Shown here one piece after another: positions 3 through 32,223 of a stretch of 32,223 bases of DNA (positions within the stretch are counted from its first letter, which is position 1; every line of letters begins with the position of its first letter). The translations under genes and the position numbers were made by a program. This DNA is from a bacterium. GTDB lineage: Bacteria; Patescibacteriota; Patescibacteriia; UBA2169. Under the pieces are notes generated by a model. It did not search any database, was not told where the DNA came from, and worked only from the letters and a program-made list of their open reading frames with translations. The stretch spans positions 1 through 32,223 of the forward strand of contig NZBL01000018.1 of assembly GCA_002687895.1 (NCBI GenBank). Direction: 5' to 3'.

Positions 3-1073
3 GCTGTATTTACCTCTGGCATAGAAACTTTAAACATTGCAAAAGGAATTTCTTTTGATCATACAATAACTACTAATAAGAGTTCGGGAATTACAATTGA
101 ATCATTTTCAGGAGCAGGATGGATAGATGATGTAAGAGATGATGGATCATCTATACGATTACGAGGTACGCCTTCTGTGGAAGATACTTATAATGTAGTA
201 ATCGAAATTAGTCACGAATCCCTTACTACTCCCGAAATAGCTGAATTTTATATTGTGGTTGGAGCAAATACACCACCAGTTGCGGACGCTGGGCCAGACC
301 AAACTGTGCAGGCAAATGATGTTGTAACATTAAATGGCACTAATTCAAGAGATGATGATGGAAATCCACTTAATTATGAATGGACTTATTTGGAATACAG
401 AGATGTAAATGGTAATGTAGCCCCAAATCCGTCTCTTGCTGGATTTTCAACTAGTACGGAAGTAGTTTCATTTACGCCAACAGTAAAGGGCAAATATAGA
501 TTTAAGCTAGTTGTAAACGATAATTTAGGTGATAGTATTGATATAGATAATGAAGATCCATATGATTCATTTGTTGAAGTAACTGTTCTTGCGCCAATTG
601 TAGCAGGATGGTCAGAAAGATCTGGCTCTACTCAAAATCCACCATATACAACTAGCTGCGAAAATAACTTTGGCCAACGCCACATTTGCACAAAATCAGA
701 GTTTGATAAATATATTCGTTTAGGTTCGTCTTCTACGCACACGGGCTTTATTAATCATTCTATAAACGAATTTGTAGGATTTAGGTATGATGGGTTAATT
801 AATATTACAACTCCTGGAATCTATGGATTTAGCACTAGATCAGATGATCCATCGTTTTTAGACATAGAAGGCACTCAAGTAGTTGGTAATGGCGGAGATC
901 ATGGGTCTAGAACTAAGACTGGAATATATAATTTTCCTAGCCGAGGACTTTATAACATAACTGTTCGAGCTGCAAATAATAATGATGAAGGAGTAATTGA
1001 CGTATGGTGGCGTTTGCCCGCAAGCTCTAGGTGGTCAAGAATTCCAAGTTCTGTGATTTCGCATTCACTATAA
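3..1073 (+). CDS. Large surface protein, C-terminal part (Ig-like/PKD domain followed by PA14-like domain); 5' end outside window
   Basis: The frame is open upstream of the listed start at 177 back to base 3 (AVFTSGIETLNIAKGISFDHTITT...). PKD signature NTPPVADAGPDQTVQANDVVTLNGTNSRDDDGNPLNYEW; PA14-like end NITVRAANNNDEGVIDVWWRLP. Confidence 0.8.
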   Translation, partial: AVFTSGIETLNIAKGISFDHTITTNKSSGITIESFSGAGWIDDVRDDGSSIRLRGTPSVEDTYNVVIEISHESLTTPEIAEFYIVVGANTPPVADAGPDQTVQANDVVTLNGTNSRDDDGNPLNYEWTYLEYRDVNGNVAPNPSLAGFSTSTEVVSFTPTVKGKYRFKLVVNDNLGDSIDIDNEDPYDSFVEVTVLAPIVAGWSERSGSTQNPPYTTSCENNFGQRHICTKSEFDKYIRLGSSSTHTGFINHSINEFVGFRYDGLINITTPGIYGFSTRSDDPSFLDIEGTQVVGNGGDHGSRTKTGIYNFPSRGLYNITVRAANNNDEGVIDVWWRLPASSRWSRIPSSVISHSL

Positions 1074-1110
1074 AAAAACGCCTCCCTCGCGCTGCGCACG
1101 AGAGAGGTGG
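1072..1110 (-). terminator. Intrinsic terminator read on the minus strand
   Basis: 12-bp stem 1081-1092/1096-1107 with loop TGC. Its two plus-strand C/A mismatches become U-G wobble pairs on the minus strand. A7 at 1072-1078 gives a U7 tract on the minus strand. Confidence 0.75.
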
Positions 1111-1146
1111 TGTTAGGGCAAATGCCCTTGCTCGGAATTCCCGAGT

Positions 1147-1239
1147 CTAGTGGACTAGGGTCATTTTGCGTTCTTGGATGTGCCTGCCCGCGATCATGCG
1201 GTATAGGTACACTCCAGAAGCAGCGTTCTGACCACTCGC
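1147..1239 (-). pseudogene. Truncated C-terminal tail resembling a T9SS type A sorting / FlgD-Ig-like domain
   Basis: Minus-strand translation ...ASGQNAASGVYLYRMIAGRHIQERKMTLVH*, matching the family pattern (SGVYxYRxxAGxxxxxRKMxLx-stop). Followed on the same strand by the terminator at 1072-1110. In-frame TGA at 1282-1284 and no recognisable upstream domain. Confidence 0.6.
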
Positions 1240-1241
1240 CA

Positions 1242-1535
1242 GACGGGTGTGGCGGACTGAACGCCGCGGCGGGGCTCTTCTTCACCAGCCGCCAGTCAGG
1301 GTCCGGGTACGCGGACTGCGGCACCGGGGCCAACGACCTCTTCGGGTGCGGGACGGTAGGATCGTACGCGAAGCCGAGTTGCGCGCCCTACGACAGTTCC
1401 TCCAGCAACCTGTGTAAAGCCCTCGGCTCATCCTGGAGCTGCGGTGGAGACCAAATGAAAGAGGCCAACAACGTGACGAAGTCCTCCGCCGCTGGCGGAG
1501 GCGCGTTGTGTTGTCGCGACCTCCCAATAGAATAA
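1242..1535 (+). pseudogene. GC-rich Cys-rich domain fragment (DGCGGLNAAAGLFFTSRQSGSGYADCGTGANDLFGCGTVGSYAKPSC...EANNVTKSSAAGGGALCCRD)
   Basis: Open frame with regularly spaced Cys and a plausible extracellular domain. Composition differs sharply from the flanks. No credible start. Confidence 0.45.
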
Positions 1536-1771
1536 GAGCGCAAGTAGATAATAATGATACATATACTATTTCAACATCACTTGATGATTCAAGCTACAAT
1601 TTATTTTGGACTATTCCTATGGTCGCAGGCAGTGGACTGCGGTGGCGTGATAGCGACATCATAACAAGCACGCCAACGCGATATATAAAAATAAACGTGG
1701 TTAACGGAGATGGTTCGTATTCTGCTTCAGAGATTGAACTATATAATAACGGAACCAAATTAGGACCTTAA
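1508..1771 (+). pseudogene. C-terminal discoidin-like (F5/8 type C-like) domain fragment
   Basis: VDNNDTYTISTSLDDSSYNLFWTIPMVAGSGLRWRDSDIITSTPTRYIKINVVNGDGSYSASEIELY resembles the C-terminal half of discoidin-like domains. AT-rich again; no good start and the first residues lie in the GC-rich islet. Confidence 0.5.
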
Positions 1772-30136: not shown

Positions 30137-32223
30137 ATGCATTATCTGCATCAAGCTTTGATCCAGAAGTTTCTTTGGGCACGTTTGGTGCTATGTATTT
30201 TCGCTTGCCTGTTATTGGCAGGCTTTTTGTTTTTCGCGAGCCCGGCTTTTGCGCAAGCAGATCCTATTGCAGAGGAGTTTGGGCTTAATACTAGTTTTCA
30301 GCAAGTAGGGGTTGCTGGAAGCAGCGACATCAAAGGCATAATAGCGAACATTATCAACATTACTCTTGGATTCTTGGGAATTGTGGCAGTCATCATCATC
30401 CTCTATGCGGGCTATATGTGGATGACTGCTGGAGGCAACGAGGAAAAAGTTTCAAAAGCAAAACTTATTTTGCGAAACGCAATAATTGGCTTGGTAATTA
30501 TTCTTGCTTCTTGGGGCATTGCCGCGTTTATTATGAGCAAACTAGGGGATGCAACAGGAGTGGGTGGAGGAATTGGGGCGAATTGCTCTTCTGATTTTCC
30601 AGATTCGTGCATTCCAGATAACTCTTTTTGCGCTTCTGGGCTTGAATGTTCCGCATTATGTACTTGCCAACTGCCCCATGAAGAGATTACTCCAGAGCCA
30701 TTTAAGATAAAATACTTTCAAACAGCTCATGAAGGCCCAGCAGGCCCTTATGATGATGTGTACTTATGCAGTCAAGTAGATTCTGTTTTTAATGAAATGC
30801 TAAACCAAGAAAGTGTTATTGACGCATGGCTAGATGGAGCAGGGGAATTAAAAATAGTACAAATATCAGACGCAGACGTCCCTCTTGACACTCCAATAGT
30901 TATGACAGCTCATATGGCTTCTGCTGGAAATGTAATTGGAATTTCTCCAAGAGAAGGTGATAATGAGTGGCCTAGTAATGGAACATTTGAACTGTATATT
31001 CCAAAAACAATTAAAGGTGTTTCTAAAAGATTTTTAGATGAATGTTTAAGAGCTGGAAGCAGGTGCAATGACAGGGGAACATATTTTTCTTGGAGCTTTA
31101 TTACAACAAACAAAAAAGATTTAGTTGATCCTGTTTTGGAATCTGCATATCCTCCATCTCCTCCAGAACCAGAAGATGAAAATGTAAACCGCAGTTTTAC
31201 TTTTAGTTTAAACTTTTCTGAGGCAATTAATATGATTCCTTTTGTAGATGGAACCACATTCAAAGCTGGGTCTACTAATGTTCTTGTGAATCAGTTAGAT
31301 GGCCAAGCAGGAGCTGTTGTTCGGCAGATTCCTTTGGCTAATTTTAATGTTCGCAAAACATCTACAGGGCTTTACTTTAATTTGAATGCCAGCGAGATTT
31401 CGGATTATGACGGATTGCCTGCTCATTTTAATCCATATACTTGGTACAGAATTACTGTGCAGAATATAACAGATATGTGCGGAAGAACAATGTCTCCAAC
31501 TCCTGTTGTTTGGGAATTCAAAACAAATGGAGTAAGCGCTGGGGTATATGGAACATATCCTCCGCATGAGTTTGCTAACACATGCCCAAGCGCTGAAACA
31601 TTTATCCAGTTCAGAACCTCTATGTATGATATTATTGAAGATTCATGCGCTGTAGGAGTTGGTGCAAGTACAGGCTTAGTTGATGATGGTTTAGGCATTT
31701 TAGAGCGTACAATTTTAGCAGTTGCACCACATGGAGAAGAGGGCGGAGATCTTAACATTGGAGGAGCATGGGATCCAAGCAACCCGAACAAATATTGCAG
31801 AATATATGATTTTACTCCGAAAACAAATCTTCTTGATGTTGGCACAACATATACTCCAATAGTTACCTACAAGGCATCGCCAAGTGCAACTCCAATAAAA
31901 TTCAACCAAGCAGGTGATGAATGGGAATTTATAGTAACTCCAGCAGACAGATGTGCAAACCCTCCATATATTAAAAGCATAAATCCAGTAGAGGGAGCAT
32001 GGGGACAGTGCACAACTATTAGAGGATTGTATTTAGGAACTTCTGGAGATGTTAAATCAAAGCTTGTATTGGATGAAGACCCAAATGACGCAGCAAAGCG
32101 CAAGAATCACGGACAAGAAATTAGTGATCCAGATGTTATAGATTACTGGGAAACAGGGCTAGGAAAACCTGGAATTATTTTTTCTGAAGTTCCTGTATGG
32201 GATGAATCTTATGTTATTGCTGA
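30137..32223 (+). CDS. Large surface protein: signal peptide, TrbC/VirB2-like two-TM pilin module, then long extracellular Ig-like region; truncated by window end
   Basis: MHYLHQALIQKFLWARLVLCIFACLLLAGFLFFASPAFAQADPIAEEFG...NIINITLGFLGIVAVIIILYAGYMWMTAGGNEEKVSKAKLILRNAIIGLVIILASWGIAAFIMSKL; frame open to 32223; not in ORF track because no stop is reached. Confidence 0.85.
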   Translation, partial: MHYLHQALIQKFLWARLVLCIFACLLLAGFLFFASPAFAQADPIAEEFGLNTSFQQVGVAGSSDIKGIIANIINITLGFLGIVAVIIILYAGYMWMTAGGNEEKVSKAKLILRNAIIGLVIILASWGIAAFIMSKLGDATGVGGGIGANCSSDFPDSCIPDNSFCASGLECSALCTCQLPHEEITPEPFKIKYFQTAHEGPAGPYDDVYLCSQVDSVFNEMLNQESVIDAWLDGAGELKIVQISDADVPLDTPIVMTAHMASAGNVIGISPREGDNEWPSNGTFELYIPKTIKGVSKRFLDECLRAGSRCNDRGTYFSWSFITTNKKDLVDPVLESAYPPSPPEPEDENVNRSFTFSLNFSEAINMIPFVDGTTFKAGSTNVLVNQLDGQAGAVVRQIPLANFNVRKTSTGLYFNLNASEISDYDGLPAHFNPYTWYRITVQNITDMCGRTMSPTPVVWEFKTNGVSAGVYGTYPPHEFANTCPSAETFIQFRTSMYDIIEDSCAVGVGASTGLVDDGLGILERTILAVAPHGEEGGDLNIGGAWDPSNPNKYCRIYDFTPKTNLLDVGTTYTPIVTYKASPSATPIKFNQAGDEWEFIVTPADRCANPPYIKSINPVEGAWGQCTTIRGLYLGTSGDVKSKLVLDEDPNDAAKRKNHGQEISDPDVIDYWETGLGKPGIIFSEVPVWDESYVIA

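Follow-up and report, generated by a model that had tools for sequence, protein, structure and literature searches.

How could some 450 GC-rich bases, built from the 3' ends of unrelated genes, have come to lie in the AT-rich surface-protein region of a contig assigned to a bacterium with a tiny genome? The window analysed here covers contig C18 from end to end (32,223 bases); the genome to which it belongs comprises 735,221 bases in 23 contigs, is rated 96.2% complete and 1.0% contaminated and, judging from its size and relatives, probably falls in Patescibacteria. Elsewhere, C18 carries a set of core genes, namely those for EF-P, GMP synthase, IMP dehydrogenase, ParA/ParB, a RelA/SpoT-type protein, topoisomerase I, DprA, Mfd, EngA and HisRS, and a 695-codon ORF (30137-32221) that has no match to any Pfam family at E 1e-8 runs off its right end. 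Since the window is one entire contig, the islet is located only 1.1-1.5 kb from the nearest contig end, a position equally close to some end being shared by 9.5% of the genome. The GC content at 1079-1525 is 63.3%, compared to a mean of 39.3% (sd 3.7, maximum 50.2%) for the stretches of the same length from position 1540 on in C18, and the tetranucleotide distance of the islet is greater than that of any of the ~1500 host stretches matched to it in length. The flanks fall within the host distribution, the fraction of host stretches that are at least as far being 0.11 for the left flank and 0.35 for the right one. The GC and tetranucleotide profiles thus bear out a GC-rich islet amid AT-rich flanks, as described in the initial annotation, the borders of which were correct to within ~10 bases of the refined span (~1072-1522, ~450 bases).

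What, then, does the islet consist of? To the left lies an AT-rich ORF (3-1073, plus strand) that is open at the left end of the contig and encodes PKD and PA14 domains; its TAA stop falls at the first junction, which the GC profile, the position of a terminator and the sequence itself place inside or beside an A7 run (1067-1079). The adjacent minus-strand remnant (~1072-1239), in which the gene body upstream of the tail is missing, consists of the last ~30-32 codons and the stop of a T9SS/FlgD-type C-terminal secretion tail (1147-1239, minus strand; ASGQNAASGVYLYRMIAGRHIQERKMTLVH, then the stop at 1149-1147), identified by a profile match and its translation, and of a strong intrinsic terminator (1072-1107, minus strand) with a 12-bp stem, a 3-nt loop and T7. 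The curated model TIGR04183 spans 72 positions and the remnant, at ~32 residues, is too short to be scored by it or by the other models of Pfam and NCBIfam; accordingly, five C-terminal tails of Rhodothermota/Bacteroidota proteins, one of them annotated as a T9SS type A sorting domain, served to construct a small profile. The five sequences are annotated plasmid proteins, and a consensus from general knowledge was used only to fetch them. Searched with this profile, the full set of six-frame ORFs from the window yielded a single significant match, the minus-strand piece (E 9.6e-5, the next hit being at 2.3), which reaches within one position of the end of the profile; together with the 12-bp stem and T7, this result upholds the sorting-domain-like tail with its own terminator that had been read from the letters. 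No other T9SS-type tail above the cut-off was found in the host genome, and none in the sampled Myxococcota genomes, the latter search having no positive control. Three consecutive short palindromes, GGGCAAATGCCC, CTCGGAATTCCCGAG and CTAGTGGACTAG, surround the stop codon of the tail at 1113-1158, ahead of the terminator.

The plus-strand piece (1236-1520) corresponds, by homology, to the C-terminal ~95 residues (SPDGC...GGALCCRD) of a Cys-rich domain of Myxococcota, its translation being SPDGCGGLNAAAGLFF...GGALCCRD. Of 284 Myxococcota genomes, 40 encode the domain according to a targeted search, with the best homolog at E 4e-26 and 55% identity, and every locus recovered by a scan of 84,980 species genomes belonged to Deltaproteobacteria/Myxococcales; the domain was found in none of 286 further genomes sampled from the host phylum. 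On the latter finding, the possibility that the islet is one ordinary host gene was also rejected. In the homologs, the domain spans ~165 residues at the protein C-terminus and most of these proteins stop right after CCRD or CCKD, so the initial description of this piece as a truncated Cys-rich remnant holds. The islet copy retains all 18 invariant residues and all eight cysteines, and the piece is a gene end that has undergone no decay. A full-length member of the family matched no model in Pfam or NCBIfam, and the motif GCxDGxREGF ... DLCxxGWHVC ... FGCGxxG ... GGxLCCRD recurs across many Myxococcota proteins (loci L023-L027 and L067-L106).

The two pieces meet at their truncated 5' sides, head to head and not as neighbouring genes, at the second junction (1231-1245), which is delimited by the homology limits on both sides; at the third junction (1521-1528), GC-rich sequence gives way to AT-rich sequence. 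Beyond it lies the C-terminal half of an F5/8 type C (discoidin) domain (1526-1771, plus strand), detected by alignment with a homolog from another genome of the phylum (E 6.8e-13), the domain of which is recognised by Pfam as F5/8 type C. The alignment begins in the middle of the domain (NRIRAQVDNND / ERVKLQADGND), the first ~50 residues being missing. The discoidin-like nature previously ascribed to the out-of-frame, AT-rich fragment at the right edge is thereby supported. Homologs thus support the entire anatomy that was initially proposed, that is, two opposed, 5'-truncated remnants with a terminator and an out-of-frame discoidin fragment. Because half of the discoidin domain is lost, the islet is no clean insertion into a discoidin gene: either some sequence has disappeared or the left flank was never part of that gene. 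An intact relative that would join PA14 to F5/8 type C, or otherwise link both flanks, was found in none of 380 genomes. Upstream of EF-P, gene order and content differ among family members and there is, therefore, no empty site for comparison, nor was any locus homologous to that of the islet, whether allele or empty site, found in relatives. The homology limits allow a parental overlap of ~8 bases at most at the second and third junctions, the parents themselves not being in hand. Such joins, with microhomology or none and with the A7 run at the first junction, are of the kind that illegitimate DNA capture would leave, and no target duplication, inverted termini or recombination-site repeats were seen at the islet. 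The scanned genes of the window include no recombinase, integrase, reverse transcriptase or transposase. Several other identities were considered and rejected: the islet is not a recognisable structured RNA, given that an Rfam search found nothing even at a permissive threshold, and against a phage or plasmid origin, the records of both contained nothing that matched at the DNA level. In IMG/VR, neither the Cys-rich domain nor the left-flank protein was found, and the exact sequence across the second junction is absent.

So where do these pieces come from? Within ~460 bases, three joins connect four pieces that derive from at least three lineages, and sequences of different organismal origin, as judged by composition and homology, lie side by side, as expected of a chimeric contig. 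We consider it probable that the islet is a multi-piece chimera produced during library preparation, amplification or assembly, with no function in the organism. Near the contig end, short stretches from two community members, one myxobacterium-like and the other FCB-like, would have become fused to AT-rich host sequence, either with host sequence on both sides or at its edge, where the partners have few or no bases in common; the joins, we infer, are absent from the living chromosome. This is the simplest reading because joins of mixed lineage occur near a contig end, without decay and without machinery. The membership of the plus-strand piece in a Myxococcota family and the match of the minus-strand piece to Rhodothermota/Bacteroidota tails speak for it, as do the lack of any other such tail above the cut-off in the genome, the loss of half of the discoidin domain and the lack of a recombinase or repeats. 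In metagenome-assembled genomes, local assembly errors are reported to be common and cross-organism chimeras to occur, though rarely (PMC7111523). On the other side, three false joins in ~460 bases are unusual in themselves, and a simple assembly error caused by a repeat would need more than the ~8 bases shared at most at the second and third junctions, so that the chimera would have had to arise in the DNA or in chimeric reads. Of the three options initially put forward, an acquired cassette, a site that captures gene ends and an assembly chimera, the last fits best, an acquired fragment is less likely and the capture site finds no support.

The flanks fit the host composition, and both encode adhesin-type domains of a kind that a single surface gene could carry; a host gene may thus be where the foreign DNA really lies. 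This possibility takes its most plausible form, although we rate it well below the chimera, in a very recent scar: environmental DNA would have been taken up, and microhomology-mediated illegitimate recombination would have joined one or two fragments into a surface-protein gene while deleting the start of the discoidin domain, leaving a broken gene and a functionless insert. Besides the host-like flanks, such a scar is compatible with the presence on the contig of DprA, a natural-transformation protein, with the natural transformability of a saccharibacterium, another member of Patescibacteria, through comEC (PMC10633639), with the demonstration that bacteria can be transformed by short foreign DNA (PMC11580795), and with the almost complete lack of sequence in common at the joins, for which end-joining is a better fit than a simple graph error due to repeats. 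However, two fragments of different lineages would be needed at one place, or else a donor in which they were already joined, and no sampled Myxococcota genome carries such a tail, with the above caveat on positive control; the scar would have to be very young given that the foreign pieces show no decay, neither allele nor empty site is seen in sister genomes, and the proximity to a contig end would be a coincidence. That the islet is real in the chromosome, such that a tiny-genome bacterium stitched the gene 3' ends of two unrelated lineages into a surface-protein gene and shows illegitimate capture of DNA from its community at one moment in time, is in our judgement rather unlikely. A deletion between two divergent genes of one donor, which would yield the head-to-head orientation, could have produced a single fragment containing both gene ends, to be inserted or misjoined once, and both pieces are indeed GC-rich; yet they differ in GC content (58% vs 66%) and a limited search found no genome with both features, so we regard this scenario as improbable. 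Still harder to credit, and to our mind barely worth retaining, is an active site or element gathering the 3' ends of genes, for instance by copying terminated transcripts: both pieces are such ends, one reaching as far as the T run of its terminator and the other ending only a few bases away from where the stop usually lies, but this scenario is at odds with the lack of an integrase, reverse transcriptase or transposase among the scanned window genes, of recombination-site repeats and an Rfam match, and of a second such islet in ~470 kb.

The islet resembles the cross-organism chimeras and local errors of metagenomes (PMC7111523) in its abrupt change of origin and composition, without machinery and near a contig end, but, where such contigs have one join, it packs four pieces into ~460 bases. 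With illegitimate recombination that follows the uptake of short DNA from the environment it shares short foreign fragments, joins with little or no homology and a host that encodes DprA; unlike the products of that process, it combines two unrelated donors at one site and has joins that may not exist in the cell. Like integron gene cassettes, it is a small mosaic of foreign coding pieces, but these are truncated, opposed gene ends, not complete genes, and neither an integrase, among the scanned window genes, nor repeats that would fit attC-type recombination sites were seen. Should the islet be an artefact, it provides an instructive case of a short chimera of multiple origins in a genome scored at 96% completeness and 1% contamination; scores of this type miss such chimeras, and false genes enter databases. 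If it is real, small-genome bacteria would patch random community DNA into their chromosomes by illegitimate joining.

Is the islet at least unique in its genome? The survey drew on stretches from all 23 contigs, ~470 kb of 735 kb or about two thirds, and no second islet of this kind was found in them. Other 300-base stretches of at least 54% GC within these ~470 kb are located on contigs C5, C17, C14 and C3, and none of the GC-rich stretches that were read resembled paired truncated gene ends: the stretch on C5, recognised by eye, is ribosomal-RNA-like, that on C17 is a structured non-coding element, and those on C14 and C3 are GC-rich genes. The idea that GC-rich genes are a habit of this host, with the islet as one more instance, was rejected, the C3 and C14 examples that were read being whole ORFs between AT-rich spacers. 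These are complete small ORFs for secreted or coiled-coil proteins (L041 on C14, 4900-6400; L109 on C3, 3548-4090 and 7050-7736), far GC-richer than the host and set between AT-rich promoters and terminators. The C17 stretch (L044, 13340-13820, minus strand), with no long ORF, no Rfam match and no tmRNA, is ~450 nt long, GC-rich and strongly folded (z -6.2); it is located between an O-antigen-ligase-like gene and groES, ends in a long perfect hairpin with a T run, and is a candidate for an undescribed structured RNA.
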